DNA of 47,901 nucleotides from an uncultured Bacteroidota bacterium (lineage in GTDB: Bacteria; Bacteroidota; Bacteroidia; AKYH767-A; OLB10), in NCBI GenBank assembly GCA_903847585.1, contig CAINEC010000183.1, forward strand, positions 1-47,901. Direction: 5' to 3'. Of this stretch, positions 6,639 to 38,912 are shown piece by piece. Below the pieces are notes generated by a model. The model ran no database searches and had not been told where the DNA came from. It saw only the letters and a list, made by a program, of their open reading frames with translations. Position 1 is the stretch's first letter; the number at the start of each line of letters is the position of its first letter. The translations under genes were made by a program, and so were the position numbers.

Positions 6639-7562
6639 TTAAAAATACCTAGGAGTTACTACATTGTTTTTATCGAATGAAAAATCGTAGCCAATAGTAA
6701 TTTCATGTGTTCCTGAATTAACTCTTTTTAATTGACTAATCGTATAATCGAATGAATACCCCATTCGTAATTGCTTGTTTATTTGCATCGACAACAACGC
6801 CGCCCACGAGTCTTTTGCTCTGTAGTTAGCCCCAATCCATATTGATTCATTAAATAAAATATGTGCGCCAATATCAGATGAGACAGGAGCACCTTTAACG
6901 CCCTTAAGCATGAATGTTGCTTTGATTTTTATGCCATCATTGATTGGATGAACATATCCTCCCATCATGAAATAATGCCAATTGTCGATGTTAACAGTAT
7001 TCAACGATTTGCTGGTTGAAGGGTCAACTTTATTGGTAATCATTCTTGGAATAGACAATCCGATATAAGCGTTCGGTTGGTTATAATAAATTCCAAATCC
7101 AGTATTCGGAACAGTAATTCGCGGTGTGCCTAAGAAAGTAACATCGCCGATATCTTGTGTTTTTACATCACCTAATTGTTCTTGGTGGTTAACAAGTCCG
7201 CCTTGTAAACCCATTGCTAAATTTCCTTTGGGTAAATGAATACGATAAGCGTAAGTTCCAAAAACATAAAAATCATGTATCACCGAAATTTCATCGTTCA
7301 TGATAGCAAGGCCAAATGCTGATTTCTGATTTCTGAAAGGCATATGTCCGCTGAATGTTTGTGTTTTTGGAGCACCATCCATTCCCACCCATTGGTTGCG
7401 ATAAGCTGCAGTGAATGCTGCGTGATCACGACTACCTGCATATGCTGGATTAATAAATGTTTCATTAAACATATATTGCGTAAACTGAGGTTCAAACTGA
7501 GCAAATGCTTCAGATGAACCTATCAGGAACACAAATAAAATGATATGTTTAATTTGTTTCAT
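6639..7562 (-). CDS. PorP/SprF-family outer-membrane protein, cassette 1
   Basis: PorP/SprF proteins are outer-membrane beta-barrels that help secrete or display specific T9SS cargo; in Flavobacterium johnsoniae SprF is required for the SprB adhesin. The 307-residue protein has a signal peptide ending AFAQ and the family N-terminal signature QYMFNETFINPAYAGS, then YRNQWVGMDGAP, alternating hydrophobic beta-strands, and a terminal GYDFSF...TPRYF. It lies 7 bases after the SprB-repeat adhesin gene and 2 bases before the PorE-like gene, so it is probably the dedicated partner of that adhesin. The pairing is inferred from position. Confidence 0.93.
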   Translation of the reverse strand: MKQIKHIILFVFLIGSSEAFAQFEPQFTQYMFNETFINPAYAGSRDHAAFTAAYRNQWVGMDGAPKTQTFSGHMPFRNQKSAFGLAIMNDEISVIHDFYVFGTYAYRIHLPKGNLAMGLQGGLVNHQEQLGDVKTQDIGDVTFLGTPRITVPNTGFGIYYNQPNAYIGLSIPRMITNKVDPSTSKSLNTVNIDNWHYFMMGGYVHPINDGIKIKATFMLKGVKGAPVSSDIGAHILFNESIWIGANYRAKDSWAALLSMQINKQLRMGYSFDYTISQLKRVNSGTHEITIGYDFSFDKNNVVTPRYF

Positions 7563-7569
7563 TTACTGT

Positions 7570-10500
7570 TTATCTTTTTAAAACCACATATCCACTAAGT
7601 GGCTTCCCTTCGTTATTTAAATCGATTAGGAAATAATAAGTTCCTTCTGGTAAGTCTTGTCCCATCAATGCACCATTCACATTGCACTTGCCATCCCATT
7701 TATTATCATAATTTTTTTGTTTGAATACTAAGCTTCCCCATCTGTTATAGATGAATACTACATTACCATCAAAATCTTCTATGCCTTTAATATGGAAGTA
7801 ATCATTGATGCCATCATTATTTGGAGAAAATCCGTTGGGCGCATCGATTGAATCACACATAACAGAAACTTTTACTGTTGCTGTTGCTGAACATCCATAT
7901 TGATCTGTAATGGTTACAGTATAGTCAGTAGAGAAATCAGGTGTAACGGTAGGATCTGAAAAGTTTGCATTGTCAATGTTGATAGCAGGAGTCCATTGGT
8001 AATTAACCCCACCACTAGCATGCAGTTGTGCGCTCTCACCTTGACAAATGATTAAATCGTTATTCACTTGGACATGATTTAAGGCATGTACAATAATTTC
8101 AATATTATTTGATTGATATGCGCCACATGCAGTTGAAACGATTACATAGTAAGTACCGCCAACAGGAGTGGTAAATGTCGATGTAGTTGCGCCGTTTAAT
8201 GGTTCATTGTTATAATACCATTGATAGGTGGCTGCTGGTAAAGAGTCGCATTGAAGGTTTGCATATTCACCAACACAAATTTCATTGCTTGCCTGCACTT
8301 GTGCATGAACGTTAGTGATATCTGTAATAGTTTTTGAAAATTCCTTTGAGCAACCGTTAGCATCCGTTACCGTAACGGTATAAGTCCCTGCAGTAAGATT
8401 ATTAATTGAATTATTATTGTTTCCATTACTCCATAAATATTGGTATGGAGAATTTCCTCCATTAACATTTATGCTTATAAATCCTGTTTGGCCAGTTGCA
8501 CAATTAATGTTTTGTGAACTAGGTGTAATTGATAATGGAATTTGATTGTTGTTAACTACTATTGATTCATTTCTAGAACATCCATTGACATCAGTTACTG
8601 TGACGGAATAGTTGCCATTAACATTGTTAGTTATAGATGCTGATGTTGCTCCAGTATTCCATAAATAAGTATAAGGGGCTAAGCCACCTAATATATTCGT
8701 ATAAATTATTGAATTACTTGCTGAGCATGGAGAGCTGCCATTGGTAATGCTTAAAATTAAAATACTATCCGGCTCATTAATCTGATACGACTTGTTGATT
8801 GAACATCCATTCATATCGGAAACAGTAACACTATAAATGCCTGCTTTAAGATTATTGATTCGTTTTGTTGTTGAATCATTGCTCCATAAATAAGTGTAAT
8901 TACCTAATGAACCATTAACAAATAACTCGATTGCTCCAGTTGAATCTCCTTTGCAGGCTACATGATATTGGCTCGCTGTAATTTGTAAAGGTGAAAGTGG
9001 TTGAGAAATGCTAACACTTTTCGTACCTGCACACCCGTTAGCATCTGTAATGGTTACTGTATAAACACCCTGTACGAGATTGTTAATTAATCCTGTAGTT
9101 GAATTGTTACTCCATAAATAGGAGTAAGGAGTAGTTCCGCCAGTTATTATTGTGTTGATTGAGCCACTGCTATCACCAAAGCATTTAACATCAGAAGTGG
9201 TAAAGTCAACCGTTATGCTATCAACTGTGCTATTAATTGTAAATGTAGCTTGCGTGCTACACCCAAACGCATCTGTATAGTTTACAGAGTAGTTTCCAGC
9301 TGCTAAATTATTGACGTTGCTTTGTGTTAATCCATTACTCCATGTAATAGTATATGGAGCAATTCCACCTGTTGCATTAGTGTTTATCCAGCCGTTATTG
9401 CTTCCAGCGCAAGTAATGTTTCCTATTGTTGAAGTGATTGCCAATGAACTTGAGTTGTTCAATTGGTTTGATATTGTACTTGTACATCCATTTGCATCCG
9501 TTACTAAAACAGAATAATTTCCCGCAATTAATTGTTGGATGTCTTTTGTTGTTGCTCCATTATTCCATGTATAAGTATAAGGCGCAGTTCCTCCAGAAAT
9601 GTTTAGTTGTATCGCGCCGTTGTTAAGTCCTTGGCAAGTTGGATGAATAATAGTAGAGGTTAATGCAATTCCATTGTTGGTTAGTTGAAAAGTTTGATTA
9701 TTCGTACAACCATTTTGATCAGTAGCAGTAACAGAGTATGTGCCTGCCGTTATGTTTGTTATGTTTGATGTTGTTGCACCATTATTCCAGAGATAAGAAT
9801 AGTTTCCAGATGCCTGAACAGATAATTGTGAACTTGTCGAATTGTTACATGAATTGTTTGATGATGTAACTATAAACTGTGGTCCATTAACTAAGATAGA
9901 ATATGAAAATGTTTGAACGCCGTTTGTCGGACATGCATCATCCTTTACAGTTATCGTAAATGTATGTGGAATATTGCTAATGTCAGATGCAGATGGTGTC
10001 CAGCAAAAGTTTAAGCTTGGTCGATTACCTGCAGTAATCACATAGCTTGCATTTGGAATTCCGTTGTTGCAACTTAATGTTATTGATTGTATATTGTCAA
10101 GATCAATTGAGTTGACTGTAAAACATATTTGTTGATTAGCACAGATTGATGTAGTAAAGTTATTTCCTCCATTAATTCCTGAAAGTGTAGGTAGATTATT
10201 GTTACATGTTTGTGTATATACCTGCATATCACGAATTACACTACCAATAAATTGTCCGTTGCGATATTCTTTCACACGAATTGCCATTACCCCAATTTGC
10301 ATTTGATTTGGAGTAAAGTTGATGTCGCCATTCATGCTGTTTAAAGCAAATGGAGTAGAAGATGAAATTGGATTTATTACGCTCGAAGGTGGAATAAAAG
10401 TGACTGTTGAATTAGATCCTGTTTTCGGTGTGATTAATTCGTAAAACAATGAATCGCCATCTGGTTCTACAACTCCATGATTGTAGTTGAAATTTTGTCC

Positions 10501-11070
10501 TAAGCAAACAAAGGCAACAGGACTATTTGTAAAATCAGGAGATGAATTATTGATAGAAAGTAAGTTATTCAACTTTGCTTCAACGTATAAAACGGAATTG
10601 GATGAACAAGGACTATTAATCGTAGTAATTGAACAATTTCTGCAACAGATGCTATAGCTGAATGTCCAATCGCTTTGTTGCGATGGTAATGTAACAACAG
10701 TGGAGTAAGTCCATTTTTTTATTCCAGTTGCAACTCCTCCATTACAAGTTGTTGAAGTAGTTGAGCAAGGGAATGTAATTTCTTGTCCGTTAGCACCAGA
10801 AACTTTATTTGCAGAGACATTGAAATTAAAATTTCCATTCTGCGATTTGCAATTTACAGTAACGCTATTGGGTTCGGCAACACCACCGCAATCGCGATAA
10901 AATGTAACTGTGACTTCGTACTGATTTCCCGAAAGGTATTTGTATTTAATATCAGCTCCGGCAGAGTGGGTAGCAAAGGCCGATTGCATATTTAACATCA
11001 AAATACAAGTTACCATCCATCTGATAATAGATAGTGCTTTTTTGAATTTATTATTTGATGTCGATAGCAT
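7570..11070 (-). CDS. SprB-repeat surface adhesin with gliding-associated C-terminal (CHU_C, type B) domain
   Basis: The 1166-residue protein has a signal peptide ending AFATHSAG, an N-terminal module of about 370 residues with conserved Cys (FYRDCGG, SYSICCRNC) seen in Bacteroidota adhesins, then seven SprB-type repeats of about 75 residues (core YLWSNG...TVTDANGC), two Ig-like segments, and a C-terminal CHU_C domain (APNGFSPNNDGINDYF, FIYNRWGSLVF, WDGK, LPEGTYYFLIDL) ending in VVLKR. CHU_C is a type B T9SS sorting domain, so the protein is expected on the cell surface or released. It heads a three-gene unit with PorP/SprF and PorE-like proteins. A 49-base inverted repeat lies in its leader. 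The ligand is unknown. Confidence 0.92.
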   Translation of the reverse strand: MLSTSNNKFKKALSIIRWMVTCILMLNMQSAFATHSAGADIKYKYLSGNQYEVTVTFYRDCGGVAEPNSVTVNCKSQNGNFNFNVSANKVSGANGQEITFPCSTTSTTCNGGVATGIKKWTYSTVVTLPSQQSDWTFSYSICCRNCSITTINSPCSSNSVLYVEAKLNNLLSINNSSPDFTNSPVAFVCLGQNFNYNHGVVEPDGDSLFYELITPKTGSNSTVTFIPPSSVINPISSSTPFALNSMNGDINFTPNQMQIGVMAIRVKEYRNGQFIGSVIRDMQVYTQTCNNNLPTLSGINGGNNFTTSICANQQICFTVNSIDLDNIQSITLSCNNGIPNASYVITAGNRPSLNFCWTPSASDISNIPHTFTITVKDDACPTNGVQTFSYSILVNGPQFIVTSSNNSCNNSTSSQLSVQASGNYSYLWNNGATTSNITNITAGTYSVTATDQNGCTNNQTFQLTNNGIALTSTIIHPTCQGLNNGAIQLNISGGTAPYTYTWNNGATTKDIQQLIAGNYSVLVTDANGCTSTISNQLNNSSSLAITSTIGNITCAGSNNGWINTNATGGIAPYTITWSNGLTQSNVNNLAAGNYSVNYTDAFGCSTQATFTINSTVDSITVDFTTSDVKCFGDSSGSINTIITGGTTPYSYLWSNNSTTGLINNLVQGVYTVTITDANGCAGTKSVSISQPLSPLQITASQYHVACKGDSTGAIELFVNGSLGNYTYLWSNDSTTKRINNLKAGIYSVTVSDMNGCSINKSYQINEPDSILILSITNGSSPCSASNSIIYTNILGGLAPYTYLWNTGATSASITNNVNGNYSVTVTDVNGCSRNESIVVNNNQIPLSITPSSQNINCATGQTGFISINVNGGNSPYQYLWSNGNNNNSINNLTAGTYTVTVTDANGCSKEFSKTITDITNVHAQVQASNEICVGEYANLQCDSLPAATYQWYYNNEPLNGATTSTFTTPVGGTYYVIVSTACGAYQSNNIEIIVHALNHVQVNNDLIICQGESAQLHASGGVNYQWTPAINIDNANFSDPTVTPDFSTDYTVTITDQYGCSATATVKVSVMCDSIDAPNGFSPNNDGINDYFHIKGIEDFDGNVVFIYNRWGSLVFKQKNYDNKWDGKCNVNGALMGQDLPEGTYYFLIDLNNEGKPLSGYVVLKR

Positions 11071-26648: not shown

Positions 26649-29600
26649 ATGACAATAAAAAGTATTTGCAAGTATTTTTTTGCTTTTTTTTCAGTTTTAT
26701 TTTTTGGTGTTAATGGCTATGCATTTGCGAAAAATCAGGCAGGGAATATCGTTGCCACAGATTCAGTAACGAATGTTTTATGTAATGGCGGCAGTAATGG
26801 GGCAATTGATTTGACGGTATCCGGTCCAAATGCACCTTTTACATTTTTATGGTCTAACAACGAAACAACAGAAGATATTGCAAACTTAGTTGCAGGGAAT
26901 TACGCAGTAACCATCTTCGATGCTATTGGCGATAGTTTGAATCTGAATCTTGTAGTTAATGAACCTTTGCCAATAACAATATCTTCAAATGTTACATCTG
27001 TAACTTGCTTTGGAGGAAGTGATGGTTCAATTTCCTTGAGTGTATCAGGAGGAACAGGTAGTTATAATTATTTATGGAGTAATAGCGAAACGCTCTCTTC
27101 TATTTCGAATTTAATCGCAGGCAGTTATTCTGTTTCAGTTACAGATTCACTTGGCTGTAATGCATTTGAAGTAATTGCTATTGGACAACCAACAGCAATA
27201 AATATTATTGGAAATGTTACTGACATACTTTGTAATGGTGGGATTGATGGTAGTGTTGATGTAAGTGTATCAGGAGGGTCAGGTTCATATTCATATTCAT
27301 GGAGTAATGGAGTGTTGACACAAGATATAAATGCCATAGGTACTGGTACTTATACGTTGACTGTTTCTGATTTTAACGGATGTACAAATTCTTCTAGCTT
27401 CAATGTGAATCAGCCATCTCCAATATCAATCAACGCGACGGTGAATTCGATCAATTGTTTTGGTAATGCTGATGGTGCGATTAATATTACATCGAATGGT
27501 GGTACAGGAACTTTAAATTATTTATGGAGTGATGCTTCAATCAATGAAGATTTAAGTGGTGTTGTTGCAGGTGTTTATTCTTTAACAATCACAGATGCTA
27601 ATGGATGTACTAAGGATACCTCTATACAAATTACTCAAAATCCAGCAATAATAATTTCAGGTGTTGTTTCAGATGTTACTTGTAATGGATCATCAGATGG
27701 TTCAATTCAAGCAACTGCAATTGGGGGCAGTGGTGTTTATACTTTTACTTGGGATAACTCAATCGATTCACAGAATCTGAATGGTGTAATAGCAAATAAT
27801 TATTCTCTTGTAGTTGAGGATAATTTAGGTTGTGTAGTGTCACAAATATTTACGGTTAATGAGCCTTCAGTAATTTTCATCAATAATACTATTAGTGATG
27901 TTACATGCTTTGGTTTAAATAACGGTCAAATCAATATCACTTCAATTGGTGGAGTTGGAAATTATTCTTACTTATGGAATAATGCTTCAGTTGATTCATT
28001 ATTGCAGAATATCATTGCTGGAAATTACGCTGTTGTTGCGACAGATGGAAATGGTTGTACAGCTGCTGAATCATATACAGTTAATCAGCCTAGTCAATTG
28101 ATTTTATCTGATGTGATAAATGCTGTTCAATGTAATGGTGGATCAGATGGTAGTATCGACTTGACTGTTACAGGTGGAAATCCTTCTTATTTATATTCAT
28201 GGTCGAATGGAAGTACGACGCAAGACATTAGTGGGCTTACAGCAGGAGTCTATACATTTACTGTAACTGATGCAAGTAATTGTTCGGCATCTTCAAATTA
28301 TACAATTACCCAACCAAGCTTGTTGACTGTATCGTTGAATGGTGTTAACCCTACTTGTGGAGCAGCTAATGGAAGTATATCCGCAACCGTTAGTGGTGGT
28401 ACGTCAGGATATAGTTATTTGTGGAGTAATGCATCAACCGCTTCGTCAATCAGTAATGTAGCTGCAGGAGTTTATACACTTACCATTACCGATGCTAATG
28501 GATGTACAGAGGCTCAGTCTTCTTCGTTAGTCAATCAAAACGGACCATCAATCACATCAGGTATTACAACCGATCCTTCCTGTAATGGCGGAAGTAATGG
28601 TTCTATCGATATCACGATTTCAGGAGGTACTAGTCCTTTTACTTATAGTTGGAGTAATGGACAGACAATTCAAGATGTTACTGGATTAACTGCAGGTTCA
28701 TATACCGTCACAGTGACTGATGCGAATAATTGTACTGCATCATCGAGTTATTCACTTACTCAACCAAGCTTGTTGACAGTATCGTTGAATAGTGTTAATC
28801 CTACCTGTGGAGCAGCTAATGGAAGTATATCCGCAACGGTTAGTGGTGGTACATCAGTTTATAGTTATTTGTGGAGTGATTTATCAAATGCCTCATCAAT
28901 TAGTAATATTGCTGCAGGAGTTTATACACTTACTGTTACCGATGCGAATGGCTGTACAACGGTTCAGTCTTCTTCGTTAGTCAATCAAAATGGACCATCA
29001 ATCACATCAAGTATAATAAGTGATCCTTTGTGTAATGGGGGAAGTGATGGTTCAATTGATATTACTATTTCAGGCGGAGTCGGTCCTTTTGTATATAGTT
29101 GGAGTAATGGTCAGACAAATCAAGATGCTTCGGGTTTGTCAGCAGGAACATATACAGTTACAATTACCGATGCGAATAGTTGCGTAAATAGTAATTCTTA
29201 TACAATCAACCAGCCATCTGCGCTAATCGCTAGTGTAAACACTATAGCAACAACATGTAATTTAAATAATGGATCAGCAACAGCTAGTGTTAGTGGTGGC
29301 ACAGGAGCATTTACCTACTTATGGAATAACGCAAGCATTTCTTCTTCTATCAGTAATGTTGCAGCGGGAAGTTATACGGTAACGATAACTGATGTAAATG
29401 GATGTTCAATTATTCGTTCAGCTACAGTCAGTGCAACCTTGCCTCCGGTGGTTGTTCAATCAGCATTAACAAATGTTCTGTGTAATGGTGATAGTACTGG
29501 ATCCATTTCAATTACGATCAATAACGGTACAGCCCCTTTTACATTTGTTTGGTCGAATGGTGCTACTACACAAAATATTTCCAACATAAAAAACGGAACA

Positions 29601-32600
29601 TATACCGTTACTGTTACTGATGCCAACGGATGTACGAATGTAAAATCGTTTACCATTACTCAGCCAACATTTTTATCGCTTGCGAATTTTAGCAGTGTAA
29701 ATACTACCTGCGGGCAAGCAAATGGTTCTGCACAAGTAATTCCTGCGGGTGGGGTGAGTCCATATACTTATTTGTGGAGTAATGGTAATGTGACAAATCA
29801 GATTTTAAATGTTGGAGTAGGCTCTTACTCGGTTACTGTAACAGATAACAACGGATGTACACGCAGAAGAAATTTCTCGATTACTAATACTAACGGTCCT
29901 GCAGTAACGCTATTGTCACAAACCAACATAAATTGTTTTGGGTCTGCGACGGGAGCAATAGCTATTTCTGTAAGTGGAGGGTTAGCGCCCTATAACTATT
30001 TATGGTCGAATGCTGCAACAAGTCAAAATATCAGTGGATTAGTTGCTGGTGATTATACTATAACTGTCACCGATGCTAATAACTGTACGGCCACTGTGGT
30101 ATATACTATTACTCAGTTGGCTGCTTTGGCAATAAATCCAACTATCAATAATGCTGGGTGTTTGGCTAGTTCTGGTTCAATATCAACGGCTGTATCTGGT
30201 GGAACTATTCCTTATACCTATGACTGGAGTAATGGTAATACAACAACTTCTATCAGTAATTTAAATGCAGGAAATTATTCTTTGACAGTTACAGATAATA
30301 ATGGATGTACTGCCTTTTGGAGTGGTTCAGTTGTTGGTGCAGGATCTCCATCTGCAAGTTTTACTGTAATTGACGTAACATGTTTTGGGTTTACTGATGG
30401 TTCAATTACTAGTTCGACAAGTGGAGGAAATCCTCCTTATACTTACTTGTGGAATAATGGTAGTACAGGATCAGGCATTAGTAATTTGGATGCAGGTAGT
30501 TATTCAGTAACGATTACTGATCAGAGCGGATGTACCGCTTTCTATACTCAAACGGTTCAAAGTCCGCTGCCGCTAAATATTACCACTAACATTACCAATG
30601 TAAATTGTTTTAATGGAAATACTGGTAGTATTCAATTAACAGTAACTGGTGGTACAAGTCCGTATTCGTATTTATGGAATAATTCATCAACATCGAATCC
30701 AATTACTAATTTATCAGCTGGCACTTATAATGTAACTGTAACGGATGACCTCGGTTGTACGATAAACCGTACGTATGGTGTAAGTGAAAATACGGCTATA
30801 CAACGTGCCACATGGGTTGTAATAGATAACAACTGTTACGGAGGAACAATAGGTTCAATTAACCAATCCTTTATAGGTGGAGGTGGAGTTTATACATATT
30901 TGTGGAGTAATGGCGCAACCACAGAAGATTTAGCCAACTTGGCTGCTGGAACGTATACCATCACTGTAACAGATAATTTAGGATGTAGCAATTCGTTTAC
31001 TTATACCGTTGCTGAACCTGCAGCAATTGTTGCATCGATAACTTCTACAAACACGACATGTGGTTTAGCAAATGGGATTGCAAGTGTTTCTGCTTCGGGT
31101 GGTACTGGTCAGCTTTCTTATTTGTGGAGTAATAGTCAAACGACTTCTTCAATAACAAATCTATTAGCGGGTAGTTATTCTGTAACAGTAACAGATGCTA
31201 ATGGATGTACTGTATCACGCAATGTAACATTGACAAATCAGGTAGGTCCATCAATTACTTCCGGAATAATAACAGATCCTTTATGTAATGGTGGGAGTAA
31301 TGGATCGATTAATATTTCAGTTAGCGGAGGTACAGTGCTTTTAAATTATGCATGGAGTAGTGGTCAAACAACTCAAGATATTAATGGACTAATAGCTGGA
31401 AATTATACAGTAACTATTACTGATGCTAACAATTGTTCTACTACTGGAAGTTATGTAGTTAATCAACCTTCTGCAATTACAGCATCTTTTACTTCAACAC
31501 CTTCCACGTGTAACCAGAATAATGGATCATTAGTAGTAACTCCTTCTGGAGGAACACCTGGTTATTCATATGTATGGAATGGAGGTAGTACATCTTCAAC
31601 AATTAATAACCTTGCTGCCGGAATCTATACTGTTACAATTACAGATTTACATGCTTGTACGTTGGTTCAAAATTCTACAGTGTTATCACAGCCATCGCCA
31701 GTAGTAGTTCAAAACACCTTAACCAATGTTCTCTGTAGTGGTGATAGCACTGGTGCGATAACTATCAGTATTAATAGTGGTACATTGCCATTTAATTTTT
31801 TATGGTCAAATGGAGCTACATCACAAAACATTTCAAATTTAACAAATGGTACATACAATGTTACAGTTACTGATGCAAATGGATGTACTGGCACTAAGTC
31901 GTTTTTCATTTCACAACCAGCCTTTTTATCGTTAGCGAATTATACAGTTGTGAATTCAACTTGTGGTCAGGCAAATGGTTCGGCTCAGGTTACGCCTGTG
32001 GGTGGAGTTAGTCCTTACGCTTATTTATGGAGCAATGGTTCAATTGCTAATCAAGTATTAAATGTATCAGCAGGAACTTATTCTGTGACAGTTACCGATG
32101 CAAACGGTTGCTCGCGTCGTAGAAATGTAATTGTACAAAATACTAACGGGCCCGTATTAACGCTTTCTAACCAAACCAATGTTACTTGTTATGCGGGTAA
32201 TAATGGTGCATTAGATGTTTTAGTTACAGCAGGAGTTAGTCCATATACTTACTTATGGTCTAATGGTGCAACCACGCAGGATATTTCAAACATTGGAGCT
32301 GGTGATTATACTATTACTATTACAGATGCAAATGGATGTATTGCTGGTCAACAATTTACTATCAGTCAAAACGATTCTATAGCAATTCAAGCTACTATAA
32401 TTGATGCTAATTGTGGACAAAGTACTGGTGCAATTAGTTTAAACGTTTCAGGAGGTACTGCTCCATATTCGTACAACTGGAGTAGCGGTGGTACAAATAG
32501 TTCAATTAATAATTTGATTGCCGGAACTTATACAATTACAATAACAGATGCCTTACTATGTGCAAAGCAAAGTACATTTGTTGTGGCTGATATTCCTGGG

Positions 32601-35600
32601 CCTTCTATTGTACTTGATACCATCGTCAATGCAACATGTTATAATCAGGCAATAGGGTCAATTCAGATTTCTATTACAAATGGTACAGCCCCATTTATTT
32701 ATCAGTGGAGTAATGGTATTACTTCACAAGATAATTTAAATGTTATTGCTGGTAATTATACATTAACAGTTACTGATGATAATGGTTGTAGTATTGTTGA
32801 AAATTATACCGTTTTACAACCAGCTCAAATTCAAGCTACATTTAATGTTACCAATGCTAATTGTAATTTATCGAATGGTTCAGCAACAGTTACTGCGAGT
32901 GGAGGTGTAGGTGGTTATACTTATATATGGAGTAATGGGGTAAATGGAAATACAATTTCTAATCAGTCGTTAGGTAATTATTCAGTTATTATTACTGATG
33001 CTAACAATTGCGCAGTAGTTGATTCTGTAAATATTTTTAATTCTGGACAGGCTGCTGTTAATCTTGTAACGCAAATTAATCCTATTTGTAATGGATCAGC
33101 TAACGGACAACTTACGGTAACTGTACAAGGCGGTTTAGGTCCTTATCAATTGCAATGGTCGAATGGTGAAACTGCTTATTCAAATACTAACCTTGTTGCT
33201 GGAAACTATATTTTAACGGTTACTGATATTACGGGTTGTTCATCACAAACTTCCTATTCGCTTATAGAGCCTGATCCAATTGCAATTGCTTTTGTTGTTA
33301 CAGAGGAGCATTGTGCTCAAGGTGATGGGTCGATAAATGCAACGATTTCAGGAGGTAATGGTCAGTATACTTACTTATGGTCTAATAGCTCTTCCAATTC
33401 ATTGCTTACGGGTTTAACGAATGGCAACTATTCACTAACGGTAACGGATATCCTTGGATGTTCGGCTACTGGAAGTCAGGCCGTAAATAATATTCCTTCA
33501 CCAATTGTTGCTCAAACACAAGTGACAGATGCTATATGCTTTAACAGCGCTACTGGTGTAATTGATATTTCTGTTCAAGGTGGAGTTAGTCCTTATACTT
33601 ATTTGTGGAGTAATAATGAAATAACTCAAGATGTTGTAAATGTAAGTGCTGGTAGTTATTCAGTAACAGTTACCGATAATTTTGGATGTACAGTTAGAAG
33701 GAGTTTTGTTGTTGCTCAGCCAGATTCAATTGTTATTAGTGCAATGATTGATAACGCTGGATGTGGTAACAACAATGGTGAAATTATGATAGCTGTTGCA
33801 GGAGGTGTAGGTCCTTATTCTTATAATTGGTCTAACGGATTAACCAACGATACAATTCAAAACTTGTATGCTGGAGTTTATTCTGTGATAGTTTCAGATG
33901 GGAATAATTGTAATGCACAACAGACTTTTGCGGTGAATAATATAAGTTCTACTAATGTCATTCGTGATTCGATAGTTAACGTGAGTTGCAATAATCAATC
34001 AAACGGAGGTATCTATTTGAGCATCGATCAGGGAGAGCCACCATATACGTATGAGTGGTCAACTGGTGCAACAACTTTAAATTTAACAAATCAGCCTGCT
34101 GGGCAATATGTACTAACTGTTACAGATAATAATGGTTGTATAAGTATTTACATCGATACAATCACGCAACCAGATCCTTTTCAATTATTGTCGTTTGTCA
34201 ATAATCCGAAATGTAATATTAGTAATGGTGATATAACTGTAATTCCTTCAGGTGGAACACAGCCTTATAGTTATTTATGGAATACTGGTCAGACGTCATC
34301 AACGATTGCTGGATTAAATACTGGGACATACATATTAACTGTAACGGATGTTTTTGGTTGTTCTACTAGTTACACTGATTCAGTTGTAAATTCAGGTAGT
34401 CCTGCTATAAATCTTCTTCAATTAGATTCTGTTAGTTGCAATGGATTAAGTGATGGAAGTATCAATGTCGATATTTCTGGTGGTATCGCTCCCTATTTTT
34501 ATCAATGGGTTGGAACAAGTCAGATAACAGAAGATTTATCAAATATCCCTGCAGGAATTTATTCGTTAATTGTAACGGATGATGTTGGATGTACCATAAG
34601 TCAGTCATATACCGTTAGTCAGCCAAATCAAATACAAGTAAATTTATTAGCTGTGCAAAACGCAAGCTGTGGAAGTAATAATGGTTCAGCTGTAGTAACT
34701 GCTCAAGGAGGTACTGGGAACTTTAATTATTATTGGTCGAATGCAAGTAATAACGATACCTTGTCGAATGTGGGAGCAGGAAGTTATACATTAGTGGCTG
34801 TTGATGGCAGTGGCTGTTCTTCATCAATAATAGTAAACGTAAGTAATATCAATGGTCCTGTAATCGCGGCAGTCGATTCTGGAAATGTAACTTGTCCAAA
34901 TGTAAACGATGGGTTTATAAATATTACTGTAACCGGCGGGACACAGCCTTATCAATTTGCTTGGAGCAATCTATCTGATACAATAGCATCCGTTGTTAAT
35001 TTAACTGGAGGAAGCTACACACTAACGGTTACGGATGCACTAAATTGTATTGCGGTAAGAACTGTTACAATTGAAAAGCCTCTGCCAATTTCTGTAAATG
35101 GATTTACACCAGCATTGAACTCTCCGTATAACTTGTCTTGCTACAGAAGTGAAGATGGATCTATTATTTTAAATGTAGCAGGAGGGACTTCCCCTTATAA
35201 TTTTGTTTGGAGTAATGGTGCTGTTTCGCAAAACATTTCATCTTTACAAGCGGGTACATATACTGTTTATTTGACCGATAATAATGGGTGTACAAAGGAT
35301 TCCACTTTCTTCATAACAGAGCCTCCCCAGTTATTAGCTAATGCTGGAACTGATTTTAATGTTTGCGGTCAAACGCAAGCTAATCTAAATGCTGCAATTC
35401 CGATTTACGGAATTGGTGGTTGGGTTTTATCGGCAGGGCCTTCTGCTGTTTCGTTTACAGATTCAACTAGCAATACTTCTTTGATATCTAATCTTTCGTT
35501 TGGTGATTATCAACTTCAATGGATTGTATCCGATGGGGTGTGTTCTGACTCCGATATGGTGTTGGTTAATGTTTCTTCTGAAATTATTGCCCAGGCAGGA

Positions 35601-36104
35601 AGTGATAAAATACTTTGTGGAAATCAAATTAATTTAAATGGTACTCGACCTCAATTTGGATATGGTTATTGGAGTGATTCTTCATCGGCAATTATTGCTG
35701 ATACAGCTGATCCATTTACGTTAGTTTCTAATCTGAATTATGGAGTTAATATTTTCAATTGGATAGTGGTGAATGGAACTTGCCGTGATACTGGTACTGT
35801 AAATGTTTTTGTTCGCGATTCAATTGATTGCCTCGATCCTGTATTGTTGCCAAATGCATTTACTCCCAACAATGACGGGTACAACGATTTCTTCGAGATA
35901 AAAGGAATACAAGATTTTCTTGATAATGAAATTACCATTTTTAATCGATGGGGCTTAGTAGTTTACAATACGGAAAACTATTTTAATACTTGGGATGGTA
36001 GAGATAATAATGGAAATATGTTGTCAGATGGAACTTATTTCGCTGTGTTGAAATTAAGGACTATCAATAAATTTTATAAAACATACATTGATTTAAGACG
36101 ATGA
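26649..36104 (+). CDS. giant SprB-like adhesin with 38 tandem repeats and CHU_C (type B) sorting domain
   Basis: From the ATG at 26649 (a TTG at 26643 is also in frame) the protein has about 3151 residues. It has a signal peptide ending near YAFAKNQ, then 38 SprB-type repeats of about 75 residues by hand count, each built as C-x4/5-G(S/A), SGG, YLWSNG, AGxYxVTVTDANGC. All but the first keep two Cys. Two Ig-like segments (each with CG and a GxW block) precede a C-terminal CHU_C domain (LPNAFTPNNDGYNDFF, FNRWGLVVY, WDGRD) ending in DLRR. The family is exported by T9SS and, in F. johnsoniae SprB, moves along the cell surface during gliding. Two repeat subtypes alternate and a large block is duplicated (see findings). 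The stop overlaps the next ATG by 4 bases, so it is coupled to its PorP/SprF partner. Confidence 0.93.
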   Translation: MTIKSICKYFFAFFSVLFFGVNGYAFAKNQAGNIVATDSVTNVLCNGGSNGAIDLTVSGPNAPFTFLWSNNETTEDIANLVAGNYAVTIFDAIGDSLNLNLVVNEPLPITISSNVTSVTCFGGSDGSISLSVSGGTGSYNYLWSNSETLSSISNLIAGSYSVSVTDSLGCNAFEVIAIGQPTAINIIGNVTDILCNGGIDGSVDVSVSGGSGSYSYSWSNGVLTQDINAIGTGTYTLTVSDFNGCTNSSSFNVNQPSPISINATVNSINCFGNADGAINITSNGGTGTLNYLWSDASINEDLSGVVAGVYSLTITDANGCTKDTSIQITQNPAIIISGVVSDVTCNGSSDGSIQATAIGGSGVYTFTWDNSIDSQNLNGVIANNYSLVVEDNLGCVVSQIFTVNEPSVIFINNTISDVTCFGLNNGQINITSIGGVGNYSYLWNNASVDSLLQNIIAGNYAVVATDGNGCTAAESYTVNQPSQLILSDVINAVQCNGGSDGSIDLTVTGGNPSYLYSWSNGSTTQDISGLTAGVYTFTVTDASNCSASSNYTITQPSLLTVSLNGVNPTCGAANGSISATVSGGTSGYSYLWSNASTASSISNVAAGVYTLTITDANGCTEAQSSSLVNQNGPSITSGITTDPSCNGGSNGSIDITISGGTSPFTYSWSNGQTIQDVTGLTAGSYTVTVTDANNCTASSSYSLTQPSLLTVSLNSVNPTCGAANGSISATVSGGTSVYSYLWSDLSNASSISNIAAGVYTLTVTDANGCTTVQSSSLVNQNGPSITSSIISDPLCNGGSDGSIDITISGGVGPFVYSWSNGQTNQDASGLSAGTYTVTITDANSCVNSNSYTINQPSALIASVNTIATTCNLNNGSATASVSGGTGAFTYLWNNASISSSISNVAAGSYTVTITDVNGCSIIRSATVSATLPPVVVQSALTNVLCNGDSTGSISITINNGTAPFTFVWSNGATTQNISNIKNGTYTVTVTDANGCTNVKSFTITQPTFLSLANFSSVNTTCGQANGSAQVIPAGGVSPYTYLWSNGNVTNQILNVGVGSYSVTVTDNNGCTRRRNFSITNTNGPAVTLLSQTNINCFGSATGAIAISVSGGLAPYNYLWSNAATSQNISGLVAGDYTITVTDANNCTATVVYTITQLAALAINPTINNAGCLASSGSISTAVSGGTIPYTYDWSNGNTTTSISNLNAGNYSLTVTDNNGCTAFWSGSVVGAGSPSASFTVIDVTCFGFTDGSITSSTSGGNPPYTYLWNNGSTGSGISNLDAGSYSVTITDQSGCTAFYTQTVQSPLPLNITTNITNVNCFNGNTGSIQLTVTGGTSPYSYLWNNSSTSNPITNLSAGTYNVTVTDDLGCTINRTYGVSENTAIQRATWVVIDNNCYGGTIGSINQSFIGGGGVYTYLWSNGATTEDLANLAAGTYTITVTDNLGCSNSFTYTVAEPAAIVASITSTNTTCGLANGIASVSASGGTGQLSYLWSNSQTTSSITNLLAGSYSVTVTDANGCTVSRNVTLTNQVGPSITSGIITDPLCNGGSNGSINISVSGGTVLLNYAWSSGQTTQDINGLIAGNYTVTITDANNCSTTGSYVVNQPSAITASFTSTPSTCNQNNGSLVVTPSGGTPGYSYVWNGGSTSSTINNLAAGIYTVTITDLHACTLVQNSTVLSQPSPVVVQNTLTNVLCSGDSTGAITISINSGTLPFNFLWSNGATSQNISNLTNGTYNVTVTDANGCTGTKSFFISQPAFLSLANYTVVNSTCGQANGSAQVTPVGGVSPYAYLWSNGSIANQVLNVSAGTYSVTVTDANGCSRRRNVIVQNTNGPVLTLSNQTNVTCYAGNNGALDVLVTAGVSPYTYLWSNGATTQDISNIGAGDYTITITDANGCIAGQQFTISQNDSIAIQATIIDANCGQSTGAISLNVSGGTAPYSYNWSSGGTNSSINNLIAGTYTITITDALLCAKQSTFVVADIPGPSIVLDTIVNATCYNQAIGSIQISITNGTAPFIYQWSNGITSQDNLNVIAGNYTLTVTDDNGCSIVENYTVLQPAQIQATFNVTNANCNLSNGSATVTASGGVGGYTYIWSNGVNGNTISNQSLGNYSVIITDANNCAVVDSVNIFNSGQAAVNLVTQINPICNGSANGQLTVTVQGGLGPYQLQWSNGETAYSNTNLVAGNYILTVTDITGCSSQTSYSLIEPDPIAIAFVVTEEHCAQGDGSINATISGGNGQYTYLWSNSSSNSLLTGLTNGNYSLTVTDILGCSATGSQAVNNIPSPIVAQTQVTDAICFNSATGVIDISVQGGVSPYTYLWSNNEITQDVVNVSAGSYSVTVTDNFGCTVRRSFVVAQPDSIVISAMIDNAGCGNNNGEIMIAVAGGVGPYSYNWSNGLTNDTIQNLYAGVYSVIVSDGNNCNAQQTFAVNNISSTNVIRDSIVNVSCNNQSNGGIYLSIDQGEPPYTYEWSTGATTLNLTNQPAGQYVLTVTDNNGCISIYIDTITQPDPFQLLSFVNNPKCNISNGDITVIPSGGTQPYSYLWNTGQTSSTIAGLNTGTYILTVTDVFGCSTSYTDSVVNSGSPAINLLQLDSVSCNGLSDGSINVDISGGIAPYFYQWVGTSQITEDLSNIPAGIYSLIVTDDVGCTISQSYTVSQPNQIQVNLLAVQNASCGSNNGSAVVTAQGGTGNFNYYWSNASNNDTLSNVGAGSYTLVAVDGSGCSSSIIVNVSNINGPVIAAVDSGNVTCPNVNDGFINITVTGGTQPYQFAWSNLSDTIASVVNLTGGSYTLTVTDALNCIAVRTVTIEKPLPISVNGFTPALNSPYNLSCYRSEDGSIILNVAGGTSPYNFVWSNGAVSQNISSLQAGTYTVYLTDNNGCTKDSTFFITEPPQLLANAGTDFNVCGQTQANLNAAIPIYGIGGWVLSAGPSAVSFTDSTSNTSLISNLSFGDYQLQWIVSDGVCSDSDMVLVNVSSEIIAQAGSDKILCGNQINLNGTRPQFGYGYWSDSSSAIIADTADPFTLVSNLNYGVNIFNWIVVNGTCRDTGTVNVFVRDSIDCLDPVLLPNAFTPNNDGYNDFFEIKGIQDFLDNEITIFNRWGLVVYNTENYFNTWDGRDNNGNMLSDGTYFAVLKLRTINKFYKTYIDLRR
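28770..30347 (+). repeat. internal block A of the giant adhesin gene (repeats 10-16)
   Basis: Seven consecutive SprB repeats, starting at LLTVSLNSVNPTC, 1578 bases long. Each repeat resembles the one 2253 bases downstream (block 31023-32600) in sequence and subtype, for example FLSLANFSSVNTTCGQANGS against FLSLANYTVVNSTCGQANGS. Confidence 0.85.
31023..32600 (+). repeat. internal block B of the giant adhesin gene (repeats 20-26)
   Basis: Seven consecutive SprB repeats of exactly the same total length (1578 bases) as block 28770-30347, in the same order. It is the downstream copy of a segmental duplication with an offset of 2253 bases (751 codons), now diverged. Confidence 0.85.
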
Positions 36105-37021
36105 AACGGATACTAATAGCTGTCTTTTTATGTTGTTCGTCATACTTAATGGCGCAGCAAACGCCGTTGGTTAGTCATTATATGTTTAACGGACTAGTGC
36201 TTAATCCTGCTTATGCTGGAAGTAAAGAGTTTGTGAGTACTACAATGATGTATCGTAAGCAATGGGTTGGATTTGAAGGAGCGCCAGTTACATATTCAGG
36301 AAGTGTGCATGGATTGTTACCCAAGAAAAAATTGGGGATGGGGGCATTTATTCAGAAGGATAGAATTGGAAAAACAAATCAAACGGATGTTTATGTTTCT
36401 ACAGCTTATCACTTACCATTAGGGGATGTGAGTAAATTAAGTGTAGGATTACAGTTAGGTGCAACCAATTTTAATTCTAACGTTGTTGAATTAACGTATT
36501 GGGATCCGGGTGATAAGGTTTTTGACTATAACACGTTTACATCGTTTTTGCCGAATGCTGGATTTGGAGCTTATTTCTATCGTCCATTGTTCTATGCAGG
36601 ACTTTCAGTTCCATATCTCGTTAATTACAAACCATCTGAAAATCGCGAAGAGGAAACAAAACAAATTCATCATTTAGGTAGACGTATGTACATGACTGTT
36701 GGAGGTGTTATTGAAACTGAGGGCGACATTAAGATTAAGCCTTCCTTATTGTTAAAGAAAGAAGGGAGTTCTAAAATGCAATATGATTTAAATGTGAATG
36801 TACTATTCAATGAAATATTTTGGGTAGGAGCTTCGTATCGATCAAAAGAAGCAATCGTTGCATTGTTCGAATATCAGATAAACAGAAAGTTCAGAGTGGG
36901 TTATTCGTATGATATTACACTTGGTGGTATTAGTAATTATAATTCTGGCTCACATGAATTGATGCTTGGTTATGATTTTGGATACCCAGTTTTAAAAATT
37001 AAATCACCACGCTATTTTTAA
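36101..37021 (+). CDS. PorP/SprF-family outer-membrane protein, cassette 2
   Basis: The 306-residue protein has a signal peptide ending LMAQQ, the family signature SHYMFNGLVLNPAYAGS followed by YRKQWVGFEGAP, amphipathic beta-strands and the ending YDFGYP...SPRYF. Known SprF proteins help their cognate SprB-type adhesin through T9SS. The ATG overlaps the adhesin stop by 4 bases (ATGA), which implies coupled synthesis with the giant adhesin, and the PorE-like gene starts 1 base after its stop. It is a paralogue of the gene at 6639-7562, of nearly equal length. Confidence 0.93.
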   Translation: MKRILIAVFLCCSSYLMAQQTPLVSHYMFNGLVLNPAYAGSKEFVSTTMMYRKQWVGFEGAPVTYSGSVHGLLPKKKLGMGAFIQKDRIGKTNQTDVYVSTAYHLPLGDVSKLSVGLQLGATNFNSNVVELTYWDPGDKVFDYNTFTSFLPNAGFGAYFYRPLFYAGLSVPYLVNYKPSENREEETKQIHHLGRRMYMTVGGVIETEGDIKIKPSLLLKKEGSSKMQYDLNVNVLFNEIFWVGASYRSKEAIVALFEYQINRKFRVGYSYDITLGGISNYNSGSHELMLGYDFGYPVLKIKSPRYF

Positions 37022-37022
37022 T

Positions 37023-38912
37023 ATGAAAAATAAGAGCTTTACATATCTCTTGGTGCTGGTGCTGTTTAGCGGTTGCGTAAATATTCGTCTTCGTACTGCA
37101 AATGAAAATTATACATTAGCGGCTTATGCGCCTGCAGTAGAAGATTATGAATTTGTTTTATCTAAACGATTTGAACGTGATGCCGCAATTAATCTGGCGG
37201 ATTGCTATTACAATATGGGTAATGCAATTAAAACAGAATTCTGGTATAAAAAACTTTTTACCTATCCTAATCCAAAGGTAGAATGGAATTATCGCTTAGG
37301 TGATGCGCTTGTTAAAAATGGGAAATACCAGGAAGCAAAGAAATATTTAGAGGTTTATTCAACAGTAAATGTTTCTGATAATAAAATTAAAAATCTATTA
37401 ACTGTTTGTGATAGCTCCTTCTTATTATATTTTGATACTTTGCTGTATGATGTTAAGCCAATTCGTTATTGCAATGAAGGCGTTAATGTGTTTAGCCCAA
37501 CTTATTATAAGAATGGAATTTTATTTGTCTCCGATATGCACCATAAAGGAATGTCGAATTTGAAATCTGACATTTCAGGAAATCAATACTTCGATTTATT
37601 TTATGGCGAGAAATCAAGCAATGGAAATTGGATGGAAGCAGTACCTCTTGGAGGTGATGTGAATGGGAAATTTAATGAAGGTCCGTTGGCGTTTGATAAA
37701 GAATCTGGAAAGCTTTATTTTACAAGGAACAATTACATCAGTAATAAGATTGAAAAAAATAAGAAGAGTTTTAATGTTTTAAAAATATTTGAAGCTAATA
37801 TTGAAAACACATCAGCAACGATTGTTGGTTCGTTAAAGTTGGGTAATGATGAATATTCAGTAGGACATCCAACTTTAAATTCAAAAGGTGATGTAATGTA
37901 TTTTATTGCTAATCTCCCTTGGGGTTATGGAGGAACTGATATTTATAAATCAACAAAAATTAATAATGTATGGAGTGCTCCTGAAAATTTAGGCAATTCC
38001 ATTAATTCTTCAGGTAATGAAATGTTCCCTTTCATTTTTAATGATTCTACGATTTATTTTTCGTCGGATGGTAATTTTGGTTTAGGAGGTTTAGATATTT
38101 ACGAGTCGAGTTTTATCAATGGTACTTGGACAACTCCTTATAATATTGGTTATCCTGTTAACTCTTCGCAAGATGATTTCGGATATATCTGCGATAGTAC
38201 TGGATATAAGGGATTGTTTTCTACTAGTCGTGGAGATGGCTTTGATAAAATTTATGAGTTTACAAGAATTCCTCCACAAATTGTTGTTCGCATTCAAACG
38301 TTTGATCAGTTATCTCACGATGGAATCGAAAATACTTCGATTGCAATATTCAAAGATGGAAAGCCGTATAAAAAGTATAACTGTGATGCGAATGGTAGAT
38401 TAACATTTATGGTTGAGCCAGAGCATTCATTCGAGATCAAATGTCGTGATCAGTTCCACTATCAGAAAAAATATACGATTGACACACGTGGTGCAAAACA
38501 ATCTGATACAATTGATGTGAAGTTCGATTTGAAACAAATTGAAATTAATAAGCCATTTATCTGGTACGGTATTTCATTTAATAAGAAAACAACTAATCTT
38601 CTACCTTCATCAGAAGAACCATTACAATTGCTTGCTACGATTTTAAAAGATAATCCAGGATTGAAAGTTGAAATAGGTTCTTATACTGATGTGCGTGGTG
38701 GTGATGGAGAAAACAGAACGCTTACTAATCAACGTGCACAGTTGGTTAAGCAGAGTTTAATAAAAGCAGGCGTGAATGCATCGCAGATGGAATTTAAAGG
38801 ACATGGGTCTGAAAAAATCCTTAATCAATGTAAGGGTGGTTTGTTGTGTATCGAAGAAGATCATCAGGTAAATAATCGTATTGAGATTACTGTGTTGTCA
38901 GTAACGGAATAA
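37023..38912 (+). CDS. PorE-like OmpA-family lipoprotein, cassette 2
   Basis: The 629-residue protein has a lipobox (LFSGC, lipidated Cys at residue 18), TPR-like helices (about 25-120), a PD40-type propeller (about 150-415, with repeats such as GDVMYFIANLPWGYGGTDIY), a carboxypeptidase-regulatory-like domain (about 425-500) and an OmpA domain at the C-terminus. The peptidoglycan-binding Asp and Arg (YTDVRG, TNQRAQ) and the Cys pair before VNNRIEI are kept. This is the PorE architecture, which anchors PorP-type proteins to peptidoglycan. It differs from the cassette-1 paralogue in being a lipoprotein and in lacking the usual YFDxDK strand (it reads YGISFNKKT). It is followed by rarA after only 6 bases. 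Confidence 0.9.
   Translation: MKNKSFTYLLVLVLFSGCVNIRLRTANENYTLAAYAPAVEDYEFVLSKRFERDAAINLADCYYNMGNAIKTEFWYKKLFTYPNPKVEWNYRLGDALVKNGKYQEAKKYLEVYSTVNVSDNKIKNLLTVCDSSFLLYFDTLLYDVKPIRYCNEGVNVFSPTYYKNGILFVSDMHHKGMSNLKSDISGNQYFDLFYGEKSSNGNWMEAVPLGGDVNGKFNEGPLAFDKESGKLYFTRNNYISNKIEKNKKSFNVLKIFEANIENTSATIVGSLKLGNDEYSVGHPTLNSKGDVMYFIANLPWGYGGTDIYKSTKINNVWSAPENLGNSINSSGNEMFPFIFNDSTIYFSSDGNFGLGGLDIYESSFINGTWTTPYNIGYPVNSSQDDFGYICDSTGYKGLFSTSRGDGFDKIYEFTRIPPQIVVRIQTFDQLSHDGIENTSIAIFKDGKPYKKYNCDANGRLTFMVEPEHSFEIKCRDQFHYQKKYTIDTRGAKQSDTIDVKFDLKQIEINKPFIWYGISFNKKTTNLLPSSEEPLQLLATILKDNPGLKVEIGSYTDVRGGDGENRTLTNQRAQLVKQSLIKAGVNASQMEFKGHGSEKILNQCKGGLLCIEEDHQVNNRIEITVLSVTE

Follow-up and report, generated by a model that had tools for sequence, protein, structure and literature searches.

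How very long SprB-type single chains under large force stay straight and intact is the question raised by a giant adhesin gene in the 47,901-nucleotide stretch of Bacteroidota DNA analyzed here (the window). The gene, at positions 26649 to 36104 of the plus strand (ATG at 26649, in a frame open from 26643), encodes a type B T9SS cargo of 3,151 residues, comprising 38 SprB repeats, 2 more cysteine-bearing modules and a sorting domain. The product matches the SprB family of Pfam (PF13573) with 1141.8 bits in 36 stretches, against a curated cut-off of 28, and its C-terminal domain (35847 to 36089) scores 54.4 bits with the type B sorting profile TIGR04131 (cut-off 35) and 85.7 bits with CHU_C (cut-off 27).

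Two repeat subtypes and their order

The repeats were delimited at their first cysteine (Cys1), which anchors 38 units with a period of 75 residues. An earlier note on this DNA had divided them by hand into types A and B according to the loop that follows Cys1, and this division holds throughout, the distance from Cys1 to Gly being 5 residues in 24/24 A repeats and 4 residues in 14/14 B repeats. The order of labels agrees with that given there. Repeats 1 to 7 (26757 to 28331) are all of type A, the first of them lacking the second cysteine (Cys2); B and A then take turns from repeat 8 to repeat 36 (28332 to 34868), with B at the even positions, except for repeat 18 (30582 to 30809), a single A at a B position; and the array ends in 2 A repeats, 37 and 38 (34869 to 35339). 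With the loop columns masked, average-linkage clustering into 2 groups returned exactly the same string, exception 18 included, and with these columns removed the labels of nearest neighbors agreed in 97% of cases. When the C-terminal end of the repeat was masked as well, the two-group split disappeared and the agreement was 82%, indicating that most of the A/B signal resides in the loop and the repeat end. Nor are the labels randomly placed along the chain, since 28 of the 37 steps are changes of type, a number exceeded by none of 200,000 shuffles (p about 7e-5).

Repeat identity follows the same rhythm, reaching 0.44 at lag 2 versus 0.37 at lags 1 and 3 (z of 5.5 at lag 2 and −2.1 at lag 1), so that even lags exceed odd ones, as in a two-domain super-repeat. 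Tandem Ig domains obey a rule of low identity between neighbors, which has been linked to the avoidance of misfolding, and the lower identity at lag 1 would fit an alternation that serves to keep adjacent domains unlike. The difference is small, however, and the SprB arrays of 2 other proteins (L042 and L059) have neighbors that are 74–87% identical; we regard this explanation as quite unlikely.

A and B differ most diagnostically at the repeat end, in a mid-repeat segment (TQDI versus SSSI) and in the residues before Cys1. Consistent with the ends that the earlier note had ascribed to type A, [QE]P closes 18 of the 24 A repeats versus 1 of the 14 B repeats, and 13 of the 14 B repeats have GP/SP-like ends. 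For most A repeats, the spacing is 50 from Cys1 to Cys2 and 25 from Cys2 to the next Cys1, whereas for most B repeats it is 49 and 26; thus, the residue lost in the B loop is offset by one gained in the linker, and the period remains constant at 75. We also considered repeat ends specific to the junction and rejected this idea, because A repeats end in QP whichever type comes next, showing that the end belongs to the domain and not to the pair. Type B is absent, as previously noted, from a second adhesin in the window (cassette 1; 7570 to 11070, minus strand), in which 5 of the 7 repeats have the loop of 5 residues and 2 lack the Gly. That alternation is not obligatory is evident from the break at repeat 18 and from the AA neighbors that relatives have toward the N-terminal side.

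Conservation and duplication of the A-B order

The search of other Bacteroidota that the earlier note had proposed recovered the same alternation in syntenic orthologues (16/16 arrays), which come from 16 further genomes within the family to which the window belongs. The genome carrying the window is a draft with an estimated contamination of 4.3%, but the pattern recurs in these independent genomes. Each of the 18 loci fetched has the adhesin gene together with SprF-like and PorE-like genes, and in the 6 loci that extend far enough, NuoN is located upstream. Complete arrays, that is, unbroken ones with a visible N-terminal end, contain 46, 39, 37, 35, 35, 29, and 28 repeats; 6 relatives with 6–19 repeats, which are truncated by contig ends or broken frames, were excluded from this comparison. 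Among adjacent repeats of the family orthologues, 318 pairs are AB or BA, 77 are AA and only 1 is BB. A classifier that did not use the loop separated the 2 types completely when each family protein was held out in turn (AUC 1.000; 151 and 129 repeats).

The closest complete relative (G302, 80% identical over the C-terminal part) has an array shorter by exactly 10 repeats, and its repeats 6–28 correspond one to one to repeats 16–38 of the window, including an A repeat (its repeat 8) at the position of the exceptional repeat 18. In the window, repeats 10–16 (28782 to 30356), which fall mostly within the stretch missing in the relative, resemble repeats 20–26 (31035 to 32612), pointing to duplication of a block at lag 10, or 5 dimers. 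Repeats 10–14 and 20–24 of the window both find their best match in repeats 10–14 of the relative, the exception being repeat 12, a near tie. Repeats 20–38 pair one to one with those of 3 relatives (G301, G302, and G298), and every type is kept. Given that dS between repeats 20–37 and these relatives amounts to 1.1–1.6 (dN/dS 0.11–0.35), the A/B types have outlived saturation at silent sites, and purifying selection may hold the type of each repeat once it has formed. Repeat-level alignment gaps relative to more distant family members were discarded as unreliable, since orthology no longer runs one to one at that distance.

The distance matrices of the A and B repeats of the same dimer are correlated (Mantel r of 0.59 and 0.62, p<0.0005); thus, the 2 halves of a dimer have been duplicated together. 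Hence, the earlier proposal of a true unit formed by 2 repeats (about 150 residues) is supported as far as duplication and conservation are concerned. We propose that the array gains and loses repeats mostly as whole A-B dimers and that its register is kept because repeats pair best with their own type during recombination.

Beyond the family, the short-loop repeats were more B-like outside the loop in 27 of 27 proteins from other Bacteroidota loci, each with at least 3 repeats of either loop length, making B a phylum-wide subtype. Some arrays in the phylum sample are all A and others all or nearly all B, although the sample leans toward A-B pairs, one of the search patterns having been B-like, and its frequencies do not amount to a census. 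Super-repeats were detected in 19 of the 86 arrays with at least 12 repeats, with periods of 2 (n = 7), 3 (n = 5), 5 (n = 2), 6 (n = 1), and 7 (n = 4); 6 of the 7 period-2 arrays are those of the window and its family. Two arrays of approximately 60 repeats (L126 and L130, with L181 and L182), located beside SprF genes with a CPC tail, display a seven-domain super-repeat with blocks that are 84–99% identical, suggesting that period 7 in these arrays stems partly from recent duplication; the alternation in the window family is much older. Individual arrays offer further variations. In L126, 5 repeats are 100% identical at lag 5. The array of Chitinophaga barathri (L079; 48 repeats) has a clear period of 2 (identity of 0.65 at lag 2 versus 0.59 at lag 1) even though no short loop was scored in any of its repeats. 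Super-repeats of 6, 5, and 7 domains are found in L132, L135, and L064, respectively, and a second SprB-repeat protein of the window's own genome, on another contig, is partly alternating (identity of 0.51 at lag 2 versus 0.41 at lag 1). Searches of the open-access literature yielded no account of SprB repeats that alternate, form super-repeats or are linked by interdomain disulfides.

The alternation could also be purely historical, the product of neutral duplication of an A-B dimer with no structural role, in which case the register would be kept only by the need of recombination for similarity. The co-duplication of dimers and the 10-repeat difference between the window and its closest complete relative are what such a history would leave behind, and unrelated arrays have arrived at periods of 3, 5, 6, and 7, some of them through nearly identical recent blocks. 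By contrast, neutrality does not readily account for types that stay fixed at one-to-one positions across saturated synonymous divergence, nor for the near lack of BB in the family (1 of about 396 pairs) when such pairs are common elsewhere (89 pairs). We consider this a serious possibility, falling somewhat short of an even chance.

Predicted fold and cysteine covariation

Four-domain models of the A-B-A-B and A-A-A-A arrangements (pLDDT of 94.1 and 95.9, pTM of 0.67 and 0.71, respectively) both display one six-strand Ig-like domain per 75-residue repeat, and the order of the strands does not differ between A and B. As a unit of folding, the pair therefore finds no support. Among solved structures, the 4 tandem domains are best matched by fragments of the grappling hook protein A (GhpA) from Aureispira sp. 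CCB-QB1 (9fls, 9flw and others), with Z of 11.9–12.0 over 285–287 residues and 20–24% identity; the superposition of the tandem Ig-like domains with Z of 11.9 spans 287 residues at an rmsd of 9.8. Tandem fibronectin type III domains (1fnf) match with Z of 9.8. The rmsd to GhpA (8.3–9.8 for A-B-A-B and 6.5–8.4 for A-A-A-A) was too weak as evidence on geometry and was set aside. In the models, the loop that follows the first strand carries Cys1, and the one that precedes the last strand carries Cys2. In a fibronectin-III-like topology, such loops lie at opposite poles of the domain, with Cys1 toward the next domain and Cys2 toward the previous one, which predicts a bond between Cys1 of repeat i and Cys2 of repeat i+1.

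The distribution of cysteines agrees with this prediction. Cys2 of repeat i+1 is missing in 10 of 1,241 clean adjacent pairs, and in all 10, which come from 7 proteins, Cys1 of repeat i is missing too; 6 further clean pairs lack Cys1 in repeat i and have Cys2 in repeat i+1. In the unfiltered set, 33 of the 46 internal repeats without Cys2 come after a repeat with Cys1, many of these being irregular or divergent domains. Joint loss of Cys1 and Cys2 inside one repeat was not found (0/41). By corrected mutual information, the pair formed by Cys1 of repeat i and Cys2 of repeat i+1 ranks 8 of 5625 inter-repeat column pairs, as against z of 0.0 for the 2 cysteines of the same repeat, although several top pairs are same-column ones, which reflect the shared ancestry of neighbors, and couplings of this size are therefore partly phylogenetic.

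The ends of the arrays are informative as well. A canonical Cys2 is absent from 16 of the 17 first domains behind a signal peptide versus 107 of 1942 internal repeats (p of 4e-19; the 17 are not independent, as they include several members of the window family), and the sole exception, L103, has a cysteine at its mature N-terminus. The mature N-terminus apparently starts with Cys (AQC) in L043, L082, and L103, the first repeat of which may keep a Cys2-like cysteine. In the adhesin of Acidiluteibacter ferrifornacis (L063), repeats 3–13 carry one cysteine each, Cys1 and Cys2 by turns, and all 14 cysteines of its 13 repeats can pair only between repeats i and i+1, in which case a staple would be possible at no more than every second joint. 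Under the same scheme, all 80 mature cysteines of the window adhesin can find a partner: repeat 1 lacks Cys2, and beyond the 2 cysteine-bearing modules that follow the array (approximately 35340 to 35828), a lone cysteine before the sorting domain (codon at 35829 to 35831) remains as the proposed partner for the Cys1 of the last module. This cysteine is kept in 7 full-length orthologues, and the cysteine count is even in 6 of the 7 full-length orthologues counted.

The covariation thus suggests that neighboring domains are stapled by disulfides from Cys1 of one to Cys2 of the next, and the 2 cysteines of one repeat appear not to be partners. If they were, the co-losses would have to be accidents of array history. 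That most repeats have both cysteines fits either scheme, whereas the single-cysteine repeats of L063, the first domains without Cys2, the confinement of co-loss to an offset of +1 in 7 proteins and the expected position of the 2 loops at opposite poles all speak against a bond within the domain, which we hold to be highly improbable.

Several of the sites that distinguish A from B are located at the same putative joint. The A/B sites at the loop and the linker covary with the residue 2 before Cys2 of the next repeat (z of 5.0 for columns 9 and 56 and 5.6 for columns 69 and 56, column 56 being that of repeat i+1). In A repeats elsewhere, this residue is Asn in 531 of 717 cases (74%) after A versus 44 of 119 (37%) after B. 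This concentration of sites at the joint and their covariation with the next repeat speak against a purely historical origin and suggest that A and B are probably 2 versions of a disulfide-stapled joint to the next domain, alternating along the rod. A different role would arise if each domain were twisted by approximately 180 degrees relative to the previous one, placing A on one side of the rod and B on the other, with 2 faces for binding or self-association. Strict alternation would yield 2 such faces, and the A/B sites include a strand region away from the joint (the TQDI/SSSI segment), but arrays with periods of 3, 5, and 7 would require other twists, and we deem a two-faced rod unlikely.

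Under the joint-based reading, A and B would be 2 old subtypes of the SprB repeat, each repeat folding as its own Ig-like domain, that differ mainly where domains meet: in the Cys1 loop (5 or 4 residues), in the outgoing linker (QP or GP, with 1 additional residue in B) and at a few nearby positions. With Cys1 of each domain bonded to Cys2 of the following one, the stalk would be a chain of stapled joints in which the 2 versions take turns. We think it somewhat more probable than otherwise that SprB-repeat adhesins across Bacteroidota are built in this way, as chains of Ig-like domains with such staples, with subtypes representing joint types and ordered super-repeats of 2 to 7 domains setting the mechanical pattern of the rod. 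If so, the joint rather than the domain would be the functional unit, the adhesin would not be a row of beads on a string, and super-repeat length would become a readable property of each adhesin. The scheme also provides a simple rule that can be checked in any genome, namely, that the first domain lacks Cys2.

Export, anchoring and comparison with known systems

Immediately downstream of the adhesin gene, on the same strand, lies a gene for an outer-membrane partner of the PorP/SprF family (36101 to 37021; TIGR03519, 279.5 bits), followed by one for a protein with TPR, PD40, and OmpA domains (37023 to 38912), which is PorE-like only, as it scores 325 bits with NF052230, for which the cut-off is 600. 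The genome encodes the T9SS translocon, with SprA at 2639 bits, and a GldJ barely above its cut-off (461 versus 458 bits). PorP-like proteins are the binding partners of type B cargos, in a complex that in Porphyromonas gingivalis also includes PorE (PMC9143113). In Flavobacterium johnsoniae, a C-terminal CxC links SprF to GldK (PMC12635249). No C-terminal CxC was found in the SprF-like partner of the window adhesin, which has no cysteine beyond its signal peptide and thus differs from the SprF of SprB-type gliding adhesins. The SprF-like protein of cassette 1 (6639 to 7562, minus strand) has no cysteines at all. Given a partner without CxC, the stalk is just as likely to be statically anchored as to move in the manner of a gliding adhesin. 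It may leave the cell through the T9SS as type B cargo and be anchored by the products of the 2 neighboring genes, the SprF-like barrel and the PorE-like OmpA protein. Taken together, a stalk of two-domain super-repeats with stapled joints, growing by dimers, exported by the T9SS and anchored at the surface is the best overall explanation of the locus, and one that we consider likely.

SprB of F. johnsoniae and other PF13573 proteins resemble the window adhesin in the repeat family, the type B T9SS sorting domain and the adjoining PorP/SprF-family gene. The window differs in its A/B period of 2, whereas the 2 arrays from genomes with a CPC tail on SprF show period 7, and, compared with F. johnsoniae SprF, in the lack of the C-terminal CxC in its partner. 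GhpA, the best fold match, is also detectable by sequence (E of 6e-18). It is nevertheless a different protein with more irregular domains, and the hook oligomer is a feature of GhpA, to which the window adhesin is compared by fold and sequence only.

The A-band of titin consists of tandem Ig-type domains that arose by recursive duplication, in units of 7 and 11 domains (PMC10665226). The window adhesin shares with it tandem Ig-type domains arranged in repeats of repeats. Unlike in titin, its unit comprises 2 domains of one fold, has no known ruler function and would be joined by cysteine staples. In SasG and Aap of staphylococci, the stalk is composed of 2 kinds of domain, E and G5, in alternation. 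These proteins form an elongated adhesin stalk (PMC4458895) and, in being a long stalk of 2 alternating domain kinds, are similar to the adhesin described here. However, E and G5 are different folds, whereas A and B have the same predicted strand order.
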